Of a DNA stretch of 64,000 bases, positions 2,248 through 20,281 are shown one piece after another. Where the stretch lies: the NCBI RefSeq assembly GCF_005222915.1, contig NZ_STFX01000038.1, forward strand, positions 1 through 64,000. The letters run 5' to 3'. The stretch comes from Rhizobium sp. FKL33. GTDB lineage: Bacteria; Pseudomonadota; Alphaproteobacteria; Rhizobiales; Rhizobiaceae. The notes below the pieces were generated by a model. The model was given only the letters and a program-made list of their open reading frames with translations, was not told the origin of the DNA and did no database searches. The stretch's first letter is position 1. The number at the start of each line of letters is the position of its first letter. The position numbers were made by a program, and so were the translations under genes.

Positions 2248-2997
2248 ATGGGCGTTTTGGACAACAAGGTCGCGATCATCAGCGGCGCATCCTCGGGCAT
2301 CGGCAAGGCGGCGGCGCATCTTTTCGCTCAGGAAGGCGCGAGTCTCATTCTGAATGCGCGCGGCCAGCAGGCGCTTGAGCGCGCCGCCGCCGAGATCCGG
2401 GCTGGCGGCGGCAAAGCGATAGCGATCTCAGGCGATGTCGAATTGGCCGGCACCCATGCGGAACTGGTGGACGAAGCAAAAAGCAGATTTGGTGGAGTGG
2501 ACATTGCTTTCAACAACGCCGGCATGGTCGGCGCGATCAAACCGCTCGCGGAACTCTCGGTGGAGGACTGGCAGGCGGCGCTCACCTCCAATCTGACCGC
2601 CGCTTTTCTCGCAAGCCGCGTCCAGATCCCCGCGATGCTGGCACGCGGCGGCGGCGCGATCGTCTTTACCTCGAGCTTTGTCGGCACGAGCGTCGGCCTT
2701 CCCGGCATGGGCGCCTATGCCGCCGCCAAAGCCGGCCTGATGGGCCTGGTCAAATCCATAGCCGCCGATTACGGCGCGAAAAACATCCGCGCCAATGCGC
2801 TTCTGCCCGGCGGAACCGACACCGGCATGGCCGGCGATCAGGCCCAGAAGGACTGGGCCGCCAGCCTGCACGCCATGAAACGCATCGCGGAGCCCGATGA
2901 AATCGCGCGCGCGGCGCTGTTTCTCGCAAGCCCTGCCGCGAGTTTCGTCACCGGTTCGGCGCTTTACGCCGATGGTGGGAATTCGGCGGTAAAATAG
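2248..2997 (+). CDS. Short-chain dehydrogenase/reductase (SDR)
   Basis: The 249-aa protein is a classical SDR of normal family length. It has the nucleotide-binding GASSGIGKAA motif near residue 12, NNAG near residue 88, the catalytic Ser in TSSFVG, and YAAAK for the catalytic Tyr-Lys pair near residue 155. The start at 2248 has AGGAGA eight bases upstream; the open frame continues upstream to 2164 without a ribosome site. The substrate cannot be inferred. It lies alone between a terminator and the convergent bio genes. Confidence 0.9.
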   Translation: MGVLDNKVAIISGASSGIGKAAAHLFAQEGASLILNARGQQALERAAAEIRAGGGKAIAISGDVELAGTHAELVDEAKSRFGGVDIAFNNAGMVGAIKPLAELSVEDWQAALTSNLTAAFLASRVQIPAMLARGGGAIVFTSSFVGTSVGLPGMGAYAAAKAGLMGLVKSIAADYGAKNIRANALLPGGTDTGMAGDQAQKDWAASLHAMKRIAEPDEIARAALFLASPAASFVTGSALYADGGNSAVK

Positions 2998-3051
2998 ACT
3001 GCGCGTTCGGATCGGCTCCACCCCGGCTGGGCGGTCACATGCATGAGCCAG

Positions 3052-3144
3052 GCGCTATGAGTATAGCGCTGACAGTGCGGCTGCTCCCCGGATCATGCCC
3101 TTCTTGGAATCTTTTGGGAAGCCGCGTCTTTAGACGCGGCTTCC
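3052..3144. terminator. Two inverted repeats between convergent genes
   Basis: The 171-bp gap between the SDR and bioB holds two hairpins. GCGCTAT/ATAGCGC occupies 3052-3069. A longer perfect repeat of 13 bases, GGAAGCCGCGTCT with its complement, occupies 3117-3144. Neither has a clear T run. The longer one is the likelier bidirectional terminator. Confidence 0.45.
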
Positions 3145-3168
3145 GGTCGAAACGACACGCGATTGCGG

Positions 3169-4155
3169 TCAACTCGCAGCGCGCTGCGTGCAGGTCGGCT
3201 CCCGTCTCGCTAGGTCTGCGAACAGGTGGGCGTCCTCGCCGATACCGGAATTCGGCGTGGTGAGCAGCGTGTCGCCATAGAACACCGAATTGGCGCCCGC
3301 GACGAGACAGAGAATTTGCGCCTCACGGTTCAACGCAGACCGTCCGGCGGAGAGGCGAACCGTCGAACCGGGCATGACCAACCGCGCCGTCGCCACCATT
3401 CGAACCAGCTCGAGAGGATCGATGCGCGCGCGGTTCGCCAGCGGCGTGCCTTCGACCGGCACAAGGGCGTTTATCGGCACGCTTTCCGGATGCGGCGCCA
3501 TTGTCGCCAGGACCTGCAACATGGACGCCCGGTCGCGCATCGTCTCTCCCATGCCGATAATGCCGCCGCAGCACAGATCGATGCCGAAGGAGCGCACGAT
3601 CGCCAGCGTCTCCAGCCGGTCCTCATACGTGCGTGTGCTGATGATCTGTCCGTAGAATTCCGGACTCGTATCGAGATTGTGATTGTAGGCGGTCAGCCCC
3701 GCCGCCGCGAGGCGCTCGGCCTGATGCGGCTTCAGCATACCGAGCGTGACGCAGGCTTCCATGCCGAGAGCGCGAACGCCGGCGACCATATCGATCACGG
3801 CGTCGAACTCCTTGCCGTCCCGAACCTGTCGCCATGCCGCGCCCATGCAGAACCGCTCCGCCCCCGCCGCCTTGGCCGTTTCAGCCAAGGCGATGACTTT
3901 CTCAGGGTCCATCAGCCGATCGCGAGTCAGGTCGACTTCGCGATGATGGGCAGACTGCGGGCAATAGGCGCAGTCTTCAGGACAACCGCCCGTCTTGATC
4001 GACAGAAGGCTCGCTTTCTGGACCTTGTTGGGATCGTGATGTTGCCGGTGCACGGCATTGGCCCGGCCCACGAGTTCGAGCAACGGCGCGTCCTGAAGAT
4101 CGAGGATCTCTTCGACCGTCCAGTCGTACCGGATGACGCCATCCAAAGCCGTCAT
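3169..4155 (-). CDS. bioB: Biotin synthase
   Basis: The 328-aa product is a radical-SAM biotin synthase, which inserts sulfur into dethiobiotin. The [4Fe-4S] motif CPEDCAYC lies near residue 58, followed by the PQSAHH segment typical of BioB. Other family blocks include [18 protein letters not shown] and [10 protein letters not shown]. Length is normal. The ATG overlaps the stop of bioY by four bases (ATGA), so the two are co-transcribed. No bioF, bioD or bioA is visible. A BioR box upstream of bioY probably controls both genes. Confidence 0.96.
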
Positions 4156-11596: not shown

Positions 11597-13945
11597 ATGC
11601 TGATGCTTGCCTTGACGGCGCTCGTGAGCGCCGCGTCTGGCGTTGTGCTGCTGGTGGGCGGCATCAATCTCCTCACCCTGGGCGGCAGCCCTTATTATGC
11701 GATTGCCGGCGCAGCGTTCGTCGTGGTCGCGGCGCTTCTGGTCATGAGGCGCAAGGAAGCCCTGGCGCTCTATGGCCTGTTCACGCTGGCCTCTCTCGCA
11801 TGGGCGGTATGGGAAGTGGGCTTCGACTGGTGGCAGCTCGGACCACGCGGCGGCTTCATCATCGTCTTCGGCCTCTGGCTTCTGACGCCGCTTGTGCGCA
11901 GGCGCCTGGGCAGCTCGCTGGAGCGTGTGGAGGGCCGCACCGCCTCGTCCCTGTCGCTCGGCGTCCCGTTGCTCGTCTCCATCGCTGTCGCCGTCTATGC
12001 GATGGTCCAGACGCCCCATGATCAGCCCGGCGTTCTTCCCGATCCGCCGCCGCAGGTGCAGGCCTCGACAACCGAAACCGTCGATCCCGGCGAATGGCCC
12101 CGCTATGGACGCACCCAGCTCGGCCAGCGCTATTCGCCGCTCGCAGAGATCACGCCCGCCAATGTCGGCTTGCTGGAGGAGAAATGGCGTTTCGAAACCG
12201 GCGACAAGAAGGGCCCGAGGGATGTCGGCGAAACCACCTATCAGGTGACGCCGCTCAAGATCGGCAACACGCTCTATCTCTGCACGCCGCACAATTGGGC
12301 GATCGCGCTCGACGCCACGACCGGCAAGGAAGTCTGGCGCTTCGATCCCGGCGTGAAACTCGATTCCGCGCGCCAGCACCAGACCTGCCGGGGCGTCACC
12401 TATTTCAACGATGCGGAAGCCGCCGTCGACGCCCCCTGCAAGGAGCGGGTCTATCTGCCGGTGTCCGACGCCCGCCTGATCGCGCTCGACGCCAAGACCG
12501 GCAAGATCTGCACGAGTTTCGCCAATCAGGGTCAGTTGCAGCTCGAACAGGGCATGCCCTACAATCCCAGCGGCTATTATTATTCCACTTCGCCGCCCGT
12601 CATCACCGCCGACAAGATCATCATCGGCGGCGCCGTCAACGACAACTACTCGGTCAAGTCGCCTTCCGGCGTGATCCGCGCCTTCGATGTCCGCACCGGC
12701 GCGCTGGTTTGGAACTGGGACAGCGGCAATCCGGAGCAAACCGCTCCAATCGGACCGGGCCAGACCTATACGCCGAACTCCCCCAACAGCTGGTCGGTTT
12801 TCTCGACCGACGAAGCGCTCGGCCTCGTCTATATCCCGCTTGGCAACCAGGTGCCCGACCAGCTCGGCATGAACCGCAGCCCGGCCGTCGAGAAATTCTC
12901 GTCCTCGATCGCCGCCCTCGACGTCAACACCGGCGCGGTGCGCTGGGTGCGCCAAACCGTGCATCACGATCTCTGGGACATGGATGTGCCCGCCCAGCCG
13001 GCGTTGCTTGACATCACACAGCCGGATGGAACGACGGTTCCCGCCCTTGTCGGCCCCACCAAGCAAGGCGACATCTATGTGCTGGACCGCCGCTCGGGCG
13101 AACCGCTGATCCCGATCGAGGAGGTTCCCGCCCCGCAAAAGACCATCCCCGAGGACCGGGCGTCGCCGACCCAACCGCGGACCGGCCTCACCTTCAGGCC
13201 GCCGCCTCTTCAGGAGCGGAATATGTGGGGCGTGTCGATGTTCGACCAGATGGCCTGCCGCATCTCGTTCCACAAGCTCAACTATGAAGGCCAGTACACG
13301 CCGCCGTCGCTCAATGGCACGCTCGTCTATCCCGGCAATTTCGGCGTGTTCAACTGGGGCTCGGTCGCCGTCGATCCGGTGCGGCAAGTGATGTTCGGCA
13401 TGCCGGCCTATCTCGCCTTCACCTCGAAACTGGTGCCGCGCGCCGACATCCCGCCGAAGGGCGCCGACGAGAAAGGATCGGAACAGGGCCTCAACCGCAA
13501 TGAAGGCGCGCCTTATGGCGTCTATATGGGCCCGTTCCTCGGCCCGCTCGGCATTCCCTGCCAGGCGCCGCCCTGGGGCTATGTCGCTGCGGCGGATCTT
13601 CGCACCGGCGAAATCGTCTACAAGCATGTCAACGGCACGGTCTATGACATGCCGCCGCTTCCTCTCCCCTTCAAGCTCGGCGTTCCCGGCATCGGCGGCC
13701 CTATCATCACCGGCGGCGGCGTCGCCTTCCTCGGCGCGGCCGTAGACAACTATATCCGCGCCTATGACCTGAAGACCGGCCGCGAACTCTGGAAGGGCCG
13801 CCTTCCGGCCGGCGGCCAGGCGACGCCGATGACCTATACCGACGCGTCGGGCAAGCAGGTGGTGCTGATTGTCGCCGGCGGCCATGGCTCGGTCGGCACC
13901 AAGACGGGCGACTATGTCATCGCCTACAGCCTGCCGGCGAAATAG
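11597..13945 (+). CDS. gcd: Membrane-bound PQQ-dependent glucose dehydrogenase
   Basis: The 782-aa protein oxidises glucose to gluconolactone at the periplasmic face and passes electrons to ubiquinone. The first 145 residues hold about five membrane segments (SGVVLLVGGINLL through LLVSIAVAVYAMV). The rest is an eight-bladed quinoprotein propeller, beginning at EWPRYGRTQLGQRYSPL, with HNWAIALDATTGKEVWRFDP, HQTCRGVTY, LWDMDVPAQP and VAGGHGSVGTKTGDYV. Length fits Gcd. No pqq biosynthesis genes are in the window, so the cofactor must come from elsewhere. AGGGGAC precedes the ATG. Confidence 0.95.
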   Translation: MLMLALTALVSAASGVVLLVGGINLLTLGGSPYYAIAGAAFVVVAALLVMRRKEALALYGLFTLASLAWAVWEVGFDWWQLGPRGGFIIVFGLWLLTPLVRRRLGSSLERVEGRTASSLSLGVPLLVSIAVAVYAMVQTPHDQPGVLPDPPPQVQASTTETVDPGEWPRYGRTQLGQRYSPLAEITPANVGLLEEKWRFETGDKKGPRDVGETTYQVTPLKIGNTLYLCTPHNWAIALDATTGKEVWRFDPGVKLDSARQHQTCRGVTYFNDAEAAVDAPCKERVYLPVSDARLIALDAKTGKICTSFANQGQLQLEQGMPYNPSGYYYSTSPPVITADKIIIGGAVNDNYSVKSPSGVIRAFDVRTGALVWNWDSGNPEQTAPIGPGQTYTPNSPNSWSVFSTDEALGLVYIPLGNQVPDQLGMNRSPAVEKFSSSIAALDVNTGAVRWVRQTVHHDLWDMDVPAQPALLDITQPDGTTVPALVGPTKQGDIYVLDRRSGEPLIPIEEVPAPQKTIPEDRASPTQPRTGLTFRPPPLQERNMWGVSMFDQMACRISFHKLNYEGQYTPPSLNGTLVYPGNFGVFNWGSVAVDPVRQVMFGMPAYLAFTSKLVPRADIPPKGADEKGSEQGLNRNEGAPYGVYMGPFLGPLGIPCQAPPWGYVAAADLRTGEIVYKHVNGTVYDMPPLPLPFKLGVPGIGGPIITGGGVAFLGAAVDNYIRAYDLKTGRELWKGRLPAGGQATPMTYTDASGKQVVLIVAGGHGSVGTKTGDYVIAYSLPAK

Positions 13946-13957
13946 ACCGAAAGGCCA

Positions 13958-13983
13958 GGAACATCGGAAGGAGCGGGATGTTG
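13958..13983 (+). promoter_or_regulatory. Candidate EcfG/RpoE2-type promoter
   Basis: GGAAC (13958-13962) is followed after 17 bases by GTTG (13980-13983). It overlaps the gcd terminator and points at the broken small gene at 14017. Confidence 0.35.
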
Positions 13984-14000
13984 GATCGTCCCGCTCTTTT
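13971..14000 (+). terminator. Intrinsic terminator after gcd
   Basis: GAGCGGGA (13971-13978) pairs with TCCCGCTC (13989-13996) and is followed by TTTT. Confidence 0.75.
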
Positions 14001-14016
14001 CCTTTGGAGAAGCGTT

Positions 14017-14154
14017 ATGCCCTAAGAACCAAGACCCGCCGCCAACCAGAACGCCGCCGAAGGCGATCCGGCCGTCATCGATCGCGAACTGGCGCGGCAG
14101 GGGGAAAAGAAGGTTCAGAACGACAAGCGAGACATTCAGCCCAAACGAAGCTGA
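14017..14154 (+). pseudogene. Small hydrophilic gene broken by a stop at codon 3
   Basis: ATG at 14017 has a good ribosome site (TTTGGAGAAG), but the third codon is TAA (14023-14025). The frame then stays open for 42 codons to TGA at 14152. It encodes a coherent hydrophilic peptide (EPRPAANQNAAEGDPAV, IDRELARQGEKKVQNDK) with normal local codon use. A single A-to-T change in AAA or AAG would explain the stop. No good downstream start exists. The cause could be a true nonsense mutation or a sequencing error. Confidence 0.5.
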
Positions 14155-14160
14155 ACCACC

Positions 14161-14532
14161 TCAGGACACGTCCGGTCCATTTTCGTCGGACGGATGTCGT
14201 CTTGGAGGCGCGAACGCCGTCGTATTCTCTTCCGGATCAATGCTTCGGCCGACCTCGACGGGAAAGGGAGCTTCCCCCTCGTAGCCATCGAACATGTGAA
14301 TTGTTCCGGGCGGTGGAGGAGCCTCGTCCGTCCATTCGAAATAAATCCGACGTGCGAGAAAGCAGCCTGCAGCAGCAGCGCCCGCATAGGCCGCGATCAC
14401 CGTCCATGCCCAACTTGAACCGAGCATACGGGCAAGCCATGGCTGGATGTAACGTAGATAAGGAAGAAGACCGAACCCAGCGGCAGTGGGCGTGTACAGT
14501 GCAAAGAGCAGATATTTTACAGAGGGAGGAAT
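14161..14532 (-). CDS. Small membrane protein of unknown function, start uncertain
   Basis: The convincing part runs from about residue VKYLLFALYTPTAAGFGLL to the stop at 14161. It has two hydrophobic segments (LLFALYTPTAAGFGLLPYL and WAWTVIAAYAGAAAAGCFLA), then an acidic, proline-containing tail of about 65 residues. No ATG, GTG or well-supported TTG starts this reading. The coordinate given uses an ATT codon and is provisional. A TTG at 14595 is possible. An ATG in another frame (MIGRLVLF) hints at a frameshift just upstream. I do not recognise the family. Confidence 0.4.
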   Translation of the reverse strand: MPPSVKYLLFALYTPTAAGFGLLPYLRYIQPWLARMLGSSWAWTVIAAYAGAAAAGCFLARRIYFEWTDEAPPPPGTIHMFDGYEGEAPFPVEVGRSIDPEENTTAFAPPRRHPSDENGPDVS

Positions 14533-14620
14533 GGCCGCGGATCCGGAAATAGAACGAGACGTCCGATCATGTAGGAATGACGCTCGCCAGCGCAAGATCC
14601 GACCGTTGCTACTCTTGCGA

Positions 14621-15448
14621 TTAATTTTTGGTCGCGCCGCTCGGCATCGCCGCCAATTTGCGAACGGCGTCCGCGACCGCATCGGTCAATCCCACCGCCC
14701 AGTTCGCGCAACGCTTGCTGCGAAACTTTGGACAGTCGGCCGTCCCGGATGACGCAATTCCGACGACGTCCCAACCGTCATCCGTTCGCCGGAGAACGGG
14801 GGATCCAGAGGACTTCATTGTCAGGTCGCAATCGGTCTCGAGACCACTGCCTGATATGCCGTCGATGGCCCATGTCTTGCGGACCTGACATTCCGAGACG
14901 ATCCGTTCATTCCAATCCTGGAACGGAAAGCCATCCTGCCGGATCGACACCGCCGTCACCTTATCCTTGACCGCCGCAGGGCGGACCGGAAGCTTGTACG
15001 GCTTTACTCCGGGGATCGGTTCGGCGAGCTTCATGGCGATCCAGTCGAAGCGGTCCGTAAACGACCTTTGTCGATCATCGGGATAAATGATCGCCTTGAC
15101 ATCGATCCGATACCATTGCGACGTCTTGCCGTCCGTGACCTCGAAACCGCAATTTCCCAGGGCTGGACGACCGGCATATCTGACCATGCTTCTTTCGGGA
15201 AAAATCACATGCCGCGCCGTCAGGATGACATCGCCCTGATGCACGAGGAAAGCCGACGCCTCGTTGAACGGACACATGATGCGTCCGCTCGCGGCGAATT
15301 CTTTCCGAACATCCGCTTCGGACTTTTTGACCGAGGCGGCATAGGCCGAAATCGGCTGTCTTCTGTCCTTGCCGATCACGCCGGCGGCGACATCCTGCCA
15401 TCCAGCAACAAGACAGAGAAATGACAGGGAAAATCGCAGCGATCGCAT
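14621..15448 (-). CDS. Secreted trypsin-like serine protease
   Basis: The 275-aa product has a signal peptide (MRSLRFSLSFLCLVAGWQDVA). A trypsin-like fold is indicated by the ordered triad H80 (ILTARHV), D135 (RFDWIAMKL) and S214 (MKSSGSPVL, the S-G-S-P form of GDSGGP), and by cysteines that could pair outside the cytoplasm. Length is typical of small periplasmic S1 proteases. The substrate is unknown. The transposon-like element at 15489 begins 41 bp upstream of its start and may have displaced its promoter. Confidence 0.75.
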   Translation of the reverse strand: MRSLRFSLSFLCLVAGWQDVAAGVIGKDRRQPISAYAASVKKSEADVRKEFAASGRIMCPFNEASAFLVHQGDVILTARHVIFPERSMVRYAGRPALGNCGFEVTDGKTSQWYRIDVKAIIYPDDRQRSFTDRFDWIAMKLAEPIPGVKPYKLPVRPAAVKDKVTAVSIRQDGFPFQDWNERIVSECQVRKTWAIDGISGSGLETDCDLTMKSSGSPVLRRTDDGWDVVGIASSGTADCPKFRSKRCANWAVGLTDAVADAVRKLAAMPSGATKN

Positions 15449-15483
15449 GTGTGACCGAAAGTTTTTGGTTTGGAAATTCAGTA

Positions 15484-15488
15484 AAGGA
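15484..15488 (+). repeat. Left copy of the 5-bp target duplication AAGGA
   Basis: AAGGA directly precedes the left end of the element at 15489. The same five bases follow the right end at 16869-16873. The match extends to nine bases, TAAAGGATG (15482-15490 and 16867-16875), if neighbouring bases are counted. Confidence 0.7.
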
Positions 15489-15494
15489 TGTAGC

Positions 15495-15515
15495 TCGCCA
15501 AATAAGATGCGACTC
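15495..15515 (+). repeat. Element end repeat L1
   Basis: TCGCC-AAATA-AGATGCGACTC. This is the outermost left copy, six bases inside the boundary. Confidence 0.8.
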
Positions 15516-15572
15516 GGCGGTGTTGTTTTCGTTAGGAAAAACTACGCCCCAGCCCACCGCTGACGCGACTCG

Positions 15573-15593
15573 TCGCCTGATGAGATGCGACTC
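15573..15593 (+). repeat. Element end repeat L2
   Basis: TCGCC-TGATG-AGATGCGACTC, starting 78 bases after L1. Confidence 0.8.
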
Positions 15594-15603
15594 AGAGGCC
15601 GCT

Positions 15604-15624
15604 TCGCCAGACAAGATGCGACTC
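15604..15624 (+). repeat. Element end repeat L3
   Basis: TCGCC-AGACA-AGATGCGACTC, starting 31 bases after L2. Confidence 0.8.
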
Positions 15625-15704
15625 CGCTTTGCGAGCTTCAAAAGCAAGTGGCCGGAGACCTAGAGAAGAACGCAGTACATACTGGGGGTCAAAAACTAGA
15701 AAAA

Positions 15705-16565
15705 CTAATATCCCAGTTCACTAGGAATCACGGAAGGGCACTTCGTGATCATTTTAGCGACTTCAGCAACGATTGGGTCGCCAAATCCCTGAGTTGAGAG
15801 GAGGTATTCTAAACACTCAAGCAATCCCTTGAGTTTGTTTGGGGAACTTGAAGGGACGTTTCCGGTCAGGTACTTTCTAGGCTGTTTCTGAAAAGACCGG
15901 TTAAATAGCCGATCATGGTGTGCGCAAATATTTCGAAGGTCATTCAGGGCCTTGACCCAGTTTTCCAGCAGTTCATAGGTCGGTAGTCCGAACGCTGCAG
16001 CGAGGTCGTTTTTGACAGTGTTGGATACTTGCTCCATGGCATGACTTAGATTTCCAAATGTCATGAACTCTTTGAGCACCCAGATTGGGGGGAGCATTGG
16101 AGGATTATATTCGTCGAAATAGTGCCGCGCTCGCTGATCGTTCTTCTTGTAAAATATATCTGAAAGACGCCCTAAGGTCGCGGCCCGTGTTTTCGGGGTC
16201 TGGAAGCCAGCGTTGTCAAAGTATGGATGTGAACCATGACGGCGTGACATTATTTCGGATAATTGATTTCGGAGCGTGACTTCAAATCGGCCCGTGTGAA
16301 GGAAACAAAACAGCCTAAGCCGCTCATCAAACTCGTATAACGCTATTATATCCCGGAATTTAGTTCCAGGGATGAATGGTTTACCCGGTAGGCTTACTTG
16401 ACGTCTGCTACGAAAATAGATGCGCAGGCGCTCATATCCGATTTGGGCAATCTTCTTTTCCGCGAAATTTCGGGTGCGCCCTGGCAAAGGGAGGCCGCAG
16501 CTGATGAGATGCTGCGTTAACTGAGCTGGATTTTGATGGAGTTTGGTATAAGGTCGACGCGCCAT
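15705..16565 (-). CDS. Abi_2 (AbiD/AbiF-like) HEPN abortive-infection protein
   Basis: The 286-aa protein has the Abi_2 family blocks in order: KIAQIGYERLRIYF (about 38-51), FRDIIALYEFDERLRLF (70-86), RFEVTLRNQL (93-102), PPIWVLKEFMTFGNLSHAMEQV (159-180) and LRNICAHHDRLFNRSF (210-225). R211-N-I-C-A-H216 fits the R-x4-6-H motif of HEPN ribonucleases. Family members act as phage-triggered abortive-infection factors. Codon use is visibly more AT-rich than in neighbouring genes, a sign of transfer. The start at 16565 has GAGG about ten bases upstream. A structured RNA region lies immediately upstream on the same strand. It is the only protein of the element at 15489-16868. Confidence 0.85.
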   Translation of the reverse strand: MARRPYTKLHQNPAQLTQHLISCGLPLPGRTRNFAEKKIAQIGYERLRIYFRSRRQVSLPGKPFIPGTKFRDIIALYEFDERLRLFCFLHTGRFEVTLRNQLSEIMSRRHGSHPYFDNAGFQTPKTRAATLGRLSDIFYKKNDQRARHYFDEYNPPMLPPIWVLKEFMTFGNLSHAMEQVSNTVKNDLAAAFGLPTYELLENWVKALNDLRNICAHHDRLFNRSFQKQPRKYLTGNVPSSSPNKLKGLLECLEYLLSTQGFGDPIVAEVAKMITKCPSVIPSELGY

Positions 16566-16582
16566 CAGACGTCGACCTCAAA

Positions 16583-16693
16583 AACGAGAAGGGCCACCCT
16601 GTTGCACGTCCTTTCGGACGTGTGGTGACCCGTAGCCAGATGAATATGCTCATCTCGTTCCCAAAAATCAAGAGAAATCTTCTAGGTCACCAC
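16583..16693 (-). ncRNA. Candidate abiF-like structured RNA upstream of the Abi_2 gene
   Basis: On the minus strand a nine-base stem (GTGGTGACC at 16685-16693 with GGTCACCAC at 16622-16630) encloses AGATGA/TCATCT (16650-16655 with 16638-16643). It is followed directly by a seven-base hairpin, CACGTCC-GAAA-GGACGTG (16605-16622), capped by a stable GNRA tetraloop. AACGAGA (16653-16659) can also pair with TCTCGTT (16583-16589) as a pseudoknot. Conserved abiF RNAs with stable tetraloops are known beside Abi_2 genes. Here the RNA ends about 20 bases before the start codon. The family assignment is by position and general shape only. Confidence 0.5.
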
Positions 16694-16798
16694 AATTAAT
16701 TCAGCAATTTCTATAAGGCGCAATGATCAACTTCAGGTAAACGAGCCGAGGGAAAACACCGCAAGCCTCGCCGCCAATATCGCGGGAATTCAAACTAC

Positions 16799-16819
16799 GA
16801 GTCGCATTTTATGAGGCAA
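16799..16819 (-). repeat. Element end repeat R3
   Basis: Read on minus: TTGCC-TCATA-AAATGCGACTC. Innermost right copy, with two differences from consensus. Confidence 0.75.
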
Positions 16820-16820
16820 G

Positions 16821-16841
16821 GAGTCGCATCTAGTAAGGCGA
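16821..16841 (-). repeat. Element end repeat R2
   Basis: Read on minus: TCGCC-TTACT-AGATGCGACTC. It is separated from R3 by one base and directly adjoins R1. Confidence 0.8.
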
Positions 16842-16862
16842 CAGTCGCATCTCATGTGGCGA
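16842..16862 (-). repeat. Element end repeat R1
   Basis: Read on minus: TCGCC-ACATG-AGATGCGACTG. This is the outermost right copy, six bases inside the boundary at 16868. Confidence 0.8.
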
Positions 16863-16868
16863 CCTATA

Positions 16869-16873
16869 AAGGA
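16869..16873 (+). repeat. Right copy of the 5-bp target duplication AAGGA
   Basis: AAGGA follows the right end of the element and directly touches the CCA end of the tRNA-Val gene at 16874. Confidence 0.7.
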
Positions 16874-16948
16874 TGGTGGGCGTGACAGGGATCGAACCTG
16901 TGACCCCTTCGGTGTGAACGAAGTGCTCTCCCGCTGAGCTACACGCCC
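16874..16948 (-). tRNA. tRNA-Val (anticodon CAC)
   Basis: The 75-nt gene includes an encoded CCA. The acceptor stem pairs GGGCGTG with CACGCCC, the D stem GCTC with GAGC, the anticodon stem CTTCG with CGAAG around loop TTCACAC, and the T stem ACAGG with CCTGT around TTCGATC. The anticodon is CAC (16914-16916), reading GUG valine codons. It is intact despite the element inserted against its 3' end. Confidence 0.95.
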
Positions 16949-17041: not shown

Positions 17042-20000
17042 TCATGCGGTTTTCTGGAGCGGGATTTCGGAGCCCGCGAGTTTCAGCCGGTCGGCGGCGT
17101 CCTTGAGATCCTGGCTGAAGGTGGAGGCGGCGCTGGCGGCGGACAAAATAACCTCGGCGGCGGCGGCGTCGACATGGGTGGCGCGCGATTCGGCGGGCGC
17201 AGGTTTCCCCAGCAGATAGCCCTGCAATTCATGGCAGCCGATCTGCGTCAGGAAGCGCGCCGCCTCGATGGTTTCGACGCCTTCGGCGACCAGCGTCATG
17301 CCGAGCCCGCGACCCAGTTCGGCAATGGTGCGGATGATGACGCCCGAGCTTTCGGCCTCGTCGAGATTGGCGACGAAGCTGCGATCGATCTTGATCGTAT
17401 CGAAGGGAAAACGGCTGAGATAGGAAAGCGACGAATAACCGGTGCCGAAATCGTCGAGCGCGATTTCGAAGCCCTTGCGCTTGAGTTCCTGCAGGATTGC
17501 CAGCGCGCGCGCGTCGTCGTCAATCAGCACGCTTTCGGTGATCTCGAGTTCCAGCCGGTCGGTGGAGACGCCCGCTCCGCCGACGATCGCCACGAGCGAG
17601 TCGACGAAGCCGGGTTGGCGGAACTGCAACGGCGAGACATTGACGCTGAGCTTGCCCTCGGGGATCTGTTCGGCGAGCAGCCTGCATGCTTCGGAAACCA
17701 CCCAGAGGCCGATCGGCACGATCAGCCCCGAGGCTTCGGCGACCGGAATGAAGTCGGCGGGGCTGATCATCTGCCCCTCGGCGTCGCGCCAGCGCAGCAG
17801 CGCCTCATAGCCGGAAATCGAGGCGGTGGCGGCGTCCACGCGCGGCTGCAGATAAAGTTCGAATTCCTCGCGCTCCAGCGCCTGGGCGAGTTTGGCCTCG
17901 AGTTCCCGGCGCTTTTCCGTCAATTCGTTCATGCCGGGGCGGAAAATGGTCCAGCGATTGCGGCCGGCATTCTTGGATTCATAAAGCGCGATGTCGGCGA
18001 GCGCGATGAGGTCGTCCGGCGTCTGGGCGTGATCGGGACTGCGCGCCATGCCGATGCTCACGCTGACCGGGCAGACGGCGCCGCCGCCGATGTCTACCGG
18101 CGTCCGGAAGGCGCGCACCAAGCGGAATCCGAGATCCGTCAGTTGATTTTCGAACGCGGTGTTGAAAACGATGACGCCGAATTCGTCGCCTCCCAACCGC
18201 GCCACCATCGTGTTGTTGCCAGAGATGTCGGCCAGACGGCGCGCCACTTCGCAGATCACCTTGTCGCCCGCCTGGTGGCCGTAGACGTCGTTGATGTCCT
18301 TGAAATGATCGATGTCGACCAGCGCCAGCGCATGCGCCGCGCCATGCGCCGTCGCGGCGGTGCGTCGCGCCAGTTCCTCGTTGAACAGCACCCGGTTCGG
18401 CAGGTTGGTCAACGGGTCGTGCTGGGCCATGTAGCGAATGCGCTGCTCGGCCGCCTTGCGTTCCCTGAGATCGATGATGCAGACCACCCGGGCCTGCTGC
18501 GATCGATAATGGATATCGCGGCTGCGCACTTCGATCGGGATGTGTTCATCCTCCACGCTCACCATGATCGTCTCGAACGTCTGTTCGCCCGGCGCGCCCA
18601 GCCTTGATCGGAGCCGCTGCGCCTCCTCCTCAGGCACGAAGTCGAGGAGATGGCGCCCGATGACGTCGTGACGCGGGCCGCCGAAGAGCTTGCTGAACTG
18701 ATCATTGGCGTCGACGACCGTGCCGCCGATATGGACCAGAATGGCCTCGAGCGCGGCATTGGCGAGAGCCGCGACGCGATCGGCCTCCTGCAGGTCGCGC
18801 TTGGCGTGCTCGACATCGAGCCGCTCCTTTTCACGCTCTTCGAGCGTATCCATCAGCCGGTTGAACAGGCCGGTCAACGTTTCCGCCTCGCCGCCATTGT
18901 CGTCGGGCAACCGGTGCTTGAGATTGCCGGAGCCATTGAGAAGATCGGTCAGCGCCGTCTCGACATGACCGACGCCGAGACGGGTGTCGTGTTCGGCGAC
19001 ATTGAGGCCGATATCTTCCGCTTCCGGAGTGACGCGGATCGGCGAAACCTTGTCGAGGAGCCAGAAAAAGGCGTAGCCCATCGAAAAAGCCCAGAGAAAA
19101 TTGATTGCGGAGCCCAGCAACTGGATCTCGAACTGCGCCCAGCGACCGCCATTCGGCAGATTGTCGACCGGCGCGAGGAAGGCGAGCAGCAGCGTGCCGA
19201 TGAGACCGGCGACGGCATGCACCCCCACTGCGCCCACGGCATCGTCGATGCGCAGATAACGTTCGATCGCATGGGTGCTCCACACCGCGGCCGCCGAACC
19301 GGCGGCGCCGATCGCCAAAGCGCCGGCGGGCGTCAGGATATGGCAGCCGGCGGTGACCGCCACCAGGCCGCCCAACATGCCGGTGAAGGACTTTTCGGGC
19401 AGGATGACGCCGTTGCGCAACCCCATGATATAACCCACGGACGCGCCCATGCCGCCGGCGAGCACCGTGTTGAGGATGATCATCGGCACGTCGGCGCTCA
19501 TGCGGAGCGTGGAGCCGCCGTTGAAGCCCAGCCAGCCGAAGAACAGCAGGAAAGCGCCCGTGGTGGACAACACCGGACTGTGACCGGAAATCCGGGTGAT
19601 CGATCCGTCTTCGCGGAAACGGTTCCGGCGCGCGCCGATCACCAGGCAGGCGGCGAGCGACACCCAGCCGCCGGTGGCGTGCACCACGGTCGAGCCGGCG
19701 AAATCGACGAAGCCGAGATTGGAGAGGAAGGCGCCGGAGGATGGCGCGAGCGCCCCGCCCCAGGCCCAATGCACGAAGACGGGGTAGATGATCGCCGACA
19801 TGAAGATGGAGCCGGCGACATAGGCCGACAGCTTCATCCGCTCGGCCACCGCGCCGGAAACAATCGTCGCCGCCGTGCCGCAGAACATCACCTGGAAGAC
19901 AAAGAAGCCCGCTTCCCAGGGTTCGAGACCGCCCAGCATGAAAAACTCTTTGCTGAGACCGAACGGCCAGCCGGCGGAAGGCGCAAACGCGATCATGAAA

Positions 20001-20281
20001 CCGACGGAGGCGAAAGCGACGATGCCGAAGACGAAATCGAGCAGGTTTTTCTGCGCAACGTTGATCGAATTCTTCGACCGGACCATGCCGGCTTCAAGAA
20101 GCAGGAAACCCACCTGCATCATCATCACCAGCGACGACGCCGTCATCAGCCATGCCAGGTCGATCTGCGCCTTGTAGGACATGTCGTCTTCGGCGGCCGA
20201 CGCGACAGCAGGCGTGGTCCACAACATGGCCGCGAACGCAAAAACGAGGGGTGACAGACGCGAAAACAGTACTCTGAACAT
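17042..20281 (-). CDS. Ammonium transporter-PAS-GGDEF-EAL fusion protein
   Basis: This 1079-aa protein joins a full Amt channel (residues about 35-412, after a signal-like N-terminus) to a cytoplasmic signalling tail. The Amt pore twin histidines are present as H201 (TVVHATGG) and H355 (GVHAVAG), with D193. The tail has a HAMP-like linker (about 435-490), a PAS domain (505-605), GGDEF (620-785, intact motif at 697-701) and EAL (795-1035, YEALLRW at 825-831, DDFGTGYSS at 943-951). No RxxD inhibition site lies five residues before GGDEF. The architecture suggests an ammonium-responsive enzyme that makes or degrades cyclic di-GMP, or a transceptor. Whether it transports is open. No glnK gene adjoins it. 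Confidence 0.93.
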   Translation of the reverse strand: MFRVLFSRLSPLVFAFAAMLWTTPAVASAAEDDMSYKAQIDLAWLMTASSLVMMMQVGFLLLEAGMVRSKNSINVAQKNLLDFVFGIVAFASVGFMIAFAPSAGWPFGLSKEFFMLGGLEPWEAGFFVFQVMFCGTAATIVSGAVAERMKLSAYVAGSIFMSAIIYPVFVHWAWGGALAPSSGAFLSNLGFVDFAGSTVVHATGGWVSLAACLVIGARRNRFREDGSITRISGHSPVLSTTGAFLLFFGWLGFNGGSTLRMSADVPMIILNTVLAGGMGASVGYIMGLRNGVILPEKSFTGMLGGLVAVTAGCHILTPAGALAIGAAGSAAAVWSTHAIERYLRIDDAVGAVGVHAVAGLIGTLLLAFLAPVDNLPNGGRWAQFEIQLLGSAINFLWAFSMGYAFFWLLDKVSPIRVTPEAEDIGLNVAEHDTRLGVGHVETALTDLLNGSGNLKHRLPDDNGGEAETLTGLFNRLMDTLEEREKERLDVEHAKRDLQEADRVAALANAALEAILVHIGGTVVDANDQFSKLFGGPRHDVIGRHLLDFVPEEEAQRLRSRLGAPGEQTFETIMVSVEDEHIPIEVRSRDIHYRSQQARVVCIIDLRERKAAEQRIRYMAQHDPLTNLPNRVLFNEELARRTAATAHGAAHALALVDIDHFKDINDVYGHQAGDKVICEVARRLADISGNNTMVARLGGDEFGVIVFNTAFENQLTDLGFRLVRAFRTPVDIGGGAVCPVSVSIGMARSPDHAQTPDDLIALADIALYESKNAGRNRWTIFRPGMNELTEKRRELEAKLAQALEREEFELYLQPRVDAATASISGYEALLRWRDAEGQMISPADFIPVAEASGLIVPIGLWVVSEACRLLAEQIPEGKLSVNVSPLQFRQPGFVDSLVAIVGGAGVSTDRLELEITESVLIDDDARALAILQELKRKGFEIALDDFGTGYSSLSYLSRFPFDTIKIDRSFVANLDEAESSGVIIRTIAELGRGLGMTLVAEGVETIEAARFLTQIGCHELQGYLLGKPAPAESRATHVDAAAAEVILSAASAASTFSQDLKDAADRLKLAGSEIPLQKTA

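Follow-up and report, generated by a model that had tools for sequence, protein, structure and literature searches.

A probable non-autonomous Tn7-like transposon carrying an AbiF-like gene beside tRNA-Val(CAC) in Rhizobium sp. FKL33

We identified a 1.38-kb element at positions 15489 to 16868 of the window, our term for the whole 64,000-nucleotide stretch analysed (positions 1 to 64,000 of contig NZ_STFX01000038.1, Rhizobium sp. FKL33, assembly GCF_005222915.1). It is very probably a non-autonomous Tn7-like transposon inserted beside the tRNA-Val(CAC) gene, and from its sequence we would file it as Tn7-like by its ends and as non-autonomous by its content. The element carries inverted arrays of repeat units at its two ends, is flanked by a short target duplication and contains no match to tns genes; its cargo is a single gene of a known protein family with a conserved RNA, and its right end recurs beside a tRNA gene in another genome, in a larger element that has tns genes. 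The features of its ends and edges are as follows.

15484 to 15488, no strand: left copy of AAGGA, the 5-bp target duplication, read from the sequence and part of a 9-bp match (TAAAGGATG, 15482-15490)
15489 to 15494, plus strand: left tip TGTAGC, read from the sequence
15495 to 15515, plus strand: left unit L1, a putative TnsB-binding site (pattern match, profile)
15573 to 15593, plus strand: left unit L2 (pattern match, profile)
15604 to 15624, plus strand: left unit L3 (pattern match, profile)
16799 to 16819, minus strand: right unit R3, innermost, two mismatches, corresponding to the third unit of the relative at locus L273 (see below)
16821 to 16841, minus strand: right unit R2 (pattern match, L273 comparison)
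16842 to 16862, minus strand: right unit R1, outermost (pattern match, L273 comparison)
16863 to 16868, minus strand: right tip TATAGG, the relatives having TGTAGG (two) and TGTAGT (one)
16869 to 16873, no strand: right copy of AAGGA, read from the sequence
16874 to 16948, minus strand: tRNA-Val(CAC), the inferred attachment site (ARAGORN; Rfam tRNA, 68.3 bits)

The first-pass annotation, made from the letters alone, had described six 21-bp units, three per end in opposite orientation, spaced at the left and contiguous at the right, with the outermost units six bases from the boundaries, and this architecture was borne out at 15495-16862. Unit starts in the left array are 78 and 31 bp apart, while at the right the first two units are contiguous and a single base pair separates the second from the third; both outermost units have six bases, the tips, beyond them. 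The unit pattern, TCGCC-N5-AGATGCGACTC, is matched exactly by four of the six units, with one mismatch in the outermost and two in the innermost right unit. Aligning the units additionally revealed an invariant A three bases after TCGCC, which the earlier pattern had not included, and a partial dyad, GTCGC/GCGAC, complete in three of the six. Allowing up to three mismatches, the pattern, which was derived from the tested window sequence itself, occurs seven times in the 64 kb, six of these being the array units, against a mean of 1.92 and a largest value of 6 in 100 shuffles. TGT/ACA tips are a feature of Tn7-like ends; the left tip of the element reads TGTAGC and the right tip TATAGG, the latter being most simply a decayed TGTAGG.

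The abi gene is the sole long frame between the arrays, the next longest (from an ATG start) encoding 73 aa, in agreement with the earlier description of one Abi_2 gene plus its RNA and no transposition gene. Matches to tnsA-D are absent from the window (E up to 1), as are matches to TniQ from the host's own genome (E up to 0.001). The element has a GC content of 49%, compared with 62% in the window, and one of 314 sliding stretches, which possibly overlaps the element, reaches so low a value.

The AAGGA copies claimed for the two boundaries are present on both sides, but the direct repeat actually spans 9 bp (TAAAGGATG, 15482-15490 and 16867-16875), and the sequence alone is thus compatible with other edges too. 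The relatives' TGTAGG and TGTAGT tips favour the 5-bp duplication, and we rejected a 9-bp duplication with TAG tips, against which these TGTAG tips argue. As had also been proposed, the right duplication (16869-16873) touches the CCA end of tRNA-Val(CAC) (16874-16948), which puts the right element edge 5 bp from that end.

We searched 394 same-family genomes, at E up to 0.5, with a profile built from the six window units, and obtained any match in 41 of them. The matches of interest, all in one other genus, were in genomes G1002 (E 0.04 and 0.06), G014 and G117 (0.08 each); such E-values for a single unit are weak, and the case rests on the sequences themselves. Among the profile matches, loci L255 to L272 were inspected, and three loci were kept because two or three units adjoin a tRNA gene there. 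A right-hand array is present in three relatives, with three units in G1002 and two each in G014 and G117. A second locus with the full inverted arrangement of three plus three, which the first-pass annotation had led one to look for, was not found. The right tip is TGTAGG in G1002 (L273) and G014 (L275), and TGTAGT in G117 (L276). In G1002 the tip is followed by three units whose starts are 21 and 22 bp apart, as in the window, with an extra C before the third, and an ungapped comparison of tip and array together (L273 13709-13778) with the window gives 55 identities in 70 positions. When the window 70-mer was slid along both strands of 2.35 Mb of other fetched DNA as a control, the best score outside the loci was 38; the shortened G014 and G117 copies reached 41. 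In all three genomes 6 bp separate the end of the array from the CCA terminus of tRNA-Thr(GGT), giving edge-to-CCA distances, over few loci, of 5 bp (Val, window) and 6, 6 and 6 bp (Thr).

Inward of its cargo the G1002 element contains four overlapping or adjoining frames, TnsA-like, TnsB, AAA/TniB and TniQ, confirming the expectation of a larger relative with tnsB, tnsC and tniQ/tnsD homologues; they lie behind a right end shared with the window element, and this end too adjoins the 3' side of a tRNA gene. The TnsB protein (753 aa) matched a TnsAB fusion in the PDB at E 5.5e-29, Tn6677 TnsB at 8.9e-25 and Tn7 TnsB at 0.016; the TnsC-like AAA/TniB ATPase (318 aa) was recognised at E 4e-12 and 1.3e-10, and the TniQ/TnsD protein (770 aa) at E 3.1e-12. 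The remaining frame, of 256 aa, gave 24-32% tblastn matches to frames beside other TnsB-like genes and is a probable TnsA. The tnsA-D genes form one block away from the tRNA-proximal end, and the cargo (L273 7459-13709) lies between tnsA and that end; it is defence-like, with multiubiquitin, ThiF/E1-like, CapP-like M78 peptidase and NYN/HEC-09-like genes. A Pfam scan of ten G1002 proteins revealed no CRISPR gene product, although no search was aimed at CRISPR genes.

From these features we propose that a TnsB-type transposase would bind the three 21-bp units of each end, spaced at the left and packed at the right, and that a TnsD-type TniQ protein would recognise the tRNA gene and direct insertion. 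The packed end would come to lie at 5-6 bp from the tRNA's CCA, and insertion would produce the 5-bp AAGGA duplication and keep the tRNA intact. The tns genes would be supplied by an autonomous relative of the G1002 kind, either in trans or before an internal deletion, and loss of the tns block by one deletion, before or after insertion, could give the 1.38-kb form. As cargo the element would carry an AbiF-like HEPN-type RNase, with the upstream RNA serving as antitoxin and terminator. This cargo module comprises three features.

15705 to 16565, minus strand: abi gene, 286 aa, Abi_2/AbiD, with the HEPN-type motif RNICAH (RxxxxH)
16580 to 16633, minus strand: conserved structured RNA (core 16591-16631; alignment and fold with six homologues), with a terminator-like hairpin then T5, just upstream of abi
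16643 to 16671, minus strand: probable promoter of the RNA and abi, TTGATT, 17 bp, CATATT, inferred from a seven-sequence alignment in which TTG and one -10 A are invariant

The abi product matched Pfam PF07751 (E 3.7e-41), the PADLOC AbiD model (4.4e-49) and a solved Abi protein (PDB 8vz6, E 1.8e-21). We aligned it with six homologues, the best six of 417 plasmid records, which are 44-48% identical in the alignment; the R and H of RNICAH are invariant in all seven proteins, RxxxxH being what we take to be the HEPN motif. The product is thus a putative AbiF-like HEPN-type RNase, and by analogy the cargo may be an abortive-infection or RNA-antitoxin module acting in phage defence. The protein is sparse, with any match in seven of 121 family genomes (best other 48% identical) and none in viral contigs. 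No units were found within 700 bp on either side of the 13 other abi loci examined, indicating that the arrays and abi can be separated.

A promoter-like element and a hairpin RNA lie upstream of abi in all seven aligned sequences. The RNA motif reads GGG-N2-RCCACAC or alike, a stem and GTG...GGGYGGCCC, followed by T-runs in most, and its fold has 15 pairs, of which four show two-sided changes, 12 are unbroken in all seven and three are broken in one or two, the covariation being scored without a shuffle control. Rfam gave no match for the RNA, and the abiF motif RF03085 was absent at E up to 1 (4.5 kb searched) and up to 10 (161 bp searched). Promoter, T-run and gene place the RNA on the minus strand, and by analogy it may neutralise the Abi protein as an antitoxin. 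We additionally observed, at 16622-16697, that GGTCACCAC at the RNA start recurs in inverse form as GTGGTGACC, which lies upstream of the abi promoter, a possible operator or alternative fold.

Several results weigh against this reading of the element and its cargo. No second compact copy was found in the searched genomes, and the left array was not found elsewhere, the G1002 contig starting before the left end. When the unit profile was run over 297 genomes of the order, 23 had any match, the host's own included, and clusters occurred in the host's own only. The relatives lie at tRNA-Thr rather than tRNA-Val, and all three come from one genus; the AAGGA duplication is embedded in the longer 9-bp match. 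The G1002 proteins are in part remote from known families: Pfam matches of TnsB fall below cut-offs (Mu-transpos_C E 0.035, rve 0.19), PDB matches of TniQ are weak (E 0.21 at best), and the 256-aa frame has no significant Pfam or PDB match and is called TnsA by position. The right tip and R3 of the window element look decayed and, with TATAGG in place of the TGTAGG of two of the three relatives, the window copy may be stuck, its right tip possibly disabled. For the RNA, the minus strand of a 233-nt stretch is of ordinary stability (30 of 200 shuffles as stable) and the plus strand of a 135-nt part is the stable one (0 of 200), so that the strand is assigned from conservation, promoter and T-run.

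Decay of this kind would suit another history within the Tn7-like assignment, in which a single internal deletion, reaching from just within the left array as far as abi, removed tnsABCD from a full transposon at tRNA-Val, and the 1.38-kb form never moved. We judge this sub-case to be somewhat short of evenly probable. One deletion would suffice, given the G1002 layout with tnsA-D in one block and the cargo on the tRNA side; besides the decayed right tip and R3, the single copy fits it, as do the two-unit relics in G014 and G117, whose fetched stretches gave no tnsA match by tblastn at 1e-5 and no tnsB among the matches listed. Yet the window element contains no tns remnant, keeps both arrays and the duplication, and has as its cargo a single complete module that probably possesses a promoter of its own.

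The family hypotheses were taken in the order IS21, TniQ-bearing elements and the G1002 element. That the ends belong to a 3.6-kb TniA-TniB-TniQ (Tn5053/Tn402-like) family, itself frequent in the host's family, is in our view very improbable. The left tip TGTAGCTCGCC aligns with TGTCGCTCGGCA, a best score reached by two of 5000 shuffles, and among independently chosen ends by one of 5000 against L205R (12 ends tested per tip). Most of the comparison set had been chosen with a pattern partly modelled on the window tip, and once those bases are left out the best score is reached by 751 of 5000 shuffles and the mean score by 184; these statistics are weakened by the choice of comparison set, and we do not rely on them. 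The right tip is weaker (211 and 401 of 5000), and the G1002 array is far closer. As a separate observation on this family, its copies have TGTCGCT-like tips and several units per end (L211, L217, L218, L238, L240 and others), and a 5-bp duplication was seen in none of those with both flanks readable.

IS21-type ends with IstA sites around a passenger gene, which the first-pass annotation had set beside Tn7-like ends as an equal alternative, are marginally less credible again. By eye, TGT tips and repeated bipartite units of ~20 bp are also seen in IS21 copies of the host's own genome and family, and PMC10122671 describes IS21 ends as usually having at least two repeats. Against this, the ends that we read, from four types of IS21 element, each have two units, and the window tips resemble them no better than shuffled sequences do, the best score being reached by 2941 (left) and 3490 (right) of 5000 in one comparison, with a like outcome in a second. 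We rejected IS21 membership, since no transposase frame lies inside and the tips are unlike the IS21 ends read, and the G1002 array that matches the window at 55 of 70 positions, with tns genes behind it, upholds the Tn7-like half of the earlier claim. Least probable is that nothing here is mobile and regulatory or chance repeats surround abi at a variable tRNA flank: the partial dyad of the units and the general hotspot character of this tRNA flank would allow it, but the inverted layout of three plus three with tips and duplication, the 13 other abi loci without units and the recurrence of the array next to tns genes, without abi, speak against it.

Searches for the ends beyond these loci returned little. 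In the host's own genome a 20-base form of the unit, with up to two mismatches, gave 24 matches against 15 for a reversed control pattern; all five exact matches lie inside the element, and a lone one elsewhere has one mismatch. The exact unit occurred in the host's own genome only among 385 class genomes, as did the exact tandem pattern among 297 same-family genomes (1 of 297), while the tandem pattern gave one stretch, an unrelated repeat, in 84,980 species genomes. Unit searches in viral contigs returned 11, 3 and 0 stretches, either coding or unclustered single matches, and one CRISPR-like array; BLAST of the element or its ends against plasmids and phages gave nothing or weak short matches. 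A text search of the literature with unit fragments gave no title on transposable-element ends among the matches listed. We rejected a three-fold repeat in L185, which is coding sequence, as an end array, and no array like the window's was seen with the TnsB-like genes of congener G298, of G263 and of a Sinorhizobium plasmid. The CRISPR-like array lies on viral contig L131 (~830-2300), a long series of ~36-nt repeats with differing spacers whose repeat contains the window unit, which we took as chance; beside it is a 511-aa TnpB/Cas12-like frame (2293-3828, minus strand), and both the CRISPR and the Cas12 likeness are judged by eye.

We examined the flank of tRNA-Val(CAC) in six of the eight other genomes of the host genus. 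AAGGATGG adjoins the tRNA in four of the six and is shortened in two, and the DNA beyond the tRNA 3' edge is different in each. A left-hand block with a PQQ-type dehydrogenase gene is conserved up to ~14531, 2.3 kb from tRNA-Val here, and the matching block lies ~17 kb from it in G084 and 27 kb in G297; these variable distances and differing flanks point to a variable site (window 11597-16868 region). No empty site with the same left flank was found, in that no listed match covered 14532-15488 in the eight other genus genomes. Beside the same tRNA-Val in G084 (L092, oriented copy ~15565-15600) we observed two AAATCCCGCAC copies spaced 21 bp apart and lying about 55-85 bp from the tRNA, possibly another transposon end at the site. 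On the other side of the tRNA, a 1079-aa frame (17042-20281, minus strand) combines an ammonium transporter domain with PAS, GGDEF and EAL.

A lone defence gene beside a tRNA may seem to lack a vehicle, and here the vehicle could be named from the end arrays alone, with a larger partner that has transposition genes in hand for direct test. The data also suggest that the host's family harbours a Tn7-like group with several defence-like genes as cargo, whose elements stop 5-6 bp short of the 3' end of the tRNA, at more than one tRNA, and that there is an AbiF-type RNA unrecognised by current RNA-family models. We tentatively suggest, as a generalisation that has less chance of holding than of failing, a class of cargo-only Tn7-like units that enclose a single defence or toxin/RNA-antitoxin module between TnsB-site arrays; tRNA-homing TnsABCD relatives would mobilise them in trans, and they would insert beside different tRNA genes. 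According to PMC8649781 the large survey of Tn7-like elements starts from tnsB, and cargo-only units would thus be missed; if real, the class would be invisible to surveys anchored in this way. The literature matches listed, whose coverage is incomplete, contained no description of a Tn7-like element with AbiF and without tns genes.

Cargo-bearing non-autonomous elements are already known for other transposon families. Mobile insertion cassettes (MICs), miniature inverted-repeat transposable elements (MITEs) and Tn3-derived inverted-repeat miniature elements (TIMEs) with passenger genes consist of transposon ends around a passenger, without a transposase; the window element differs from them in its Tn7-like multi-site arrays and probable tRNA targeting. 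Tn7-like elements are united by end arrays (three sites left and four right in Tn7) and a fixed distance from attachment genes (PMC8649781), make 5-bp duplications (PMC11406308) and have tRNA flanks among their safe sites (PMC8649781, PMC11406308, PMC10293859). With Tn7, Tn5053, Tn6022 and the CRISPR-associated transposons (CASTs) the window element shares the end arrays and the 5-bp duplication (PMC8649781, PMC11406308), and it differs in having no tnsA/B/C/D, a length of 1.38 kb and a single cargo module.

The closest parallels for the site are the I-B2 PmcCAST and I-D CyCAST, for which PMC11406308 describes TnsD/TniQ-directed insertion beside tRNA genes, as proposed here, and a PmcCAST plasmid target carried a tRNA-Val gene (PMC10293859). 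CyCAST homes 30-33 nt from the tRNA according to the same source, whereas the right edge in the window lies 5-6 bp away, and the tRNA-homing CAST branch has a fused TnsA-TnsB (PMC11406308), in contrast to the separate tnsA-like and tnsB genes of G1002.

For the cargo, the closest parallel is the AbiF-RNA system of Clostridioides difficile, as described in PMC12373285, in which an Abi_2 protein likewise follows a structured RNA ending in a terminator; there the RNA terminates before abiF and neutralises the protein, and R and H residues are key. The window RNA differs in having no Rfam match and seemingly one hairpin motif instead of two, and the C. difficile AbiF lies on a prophage, the window abi on a transposon. 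AbiF is also listed, in Table 1 of PMC8649781, as cargo of 23 Tn7-like transposons.
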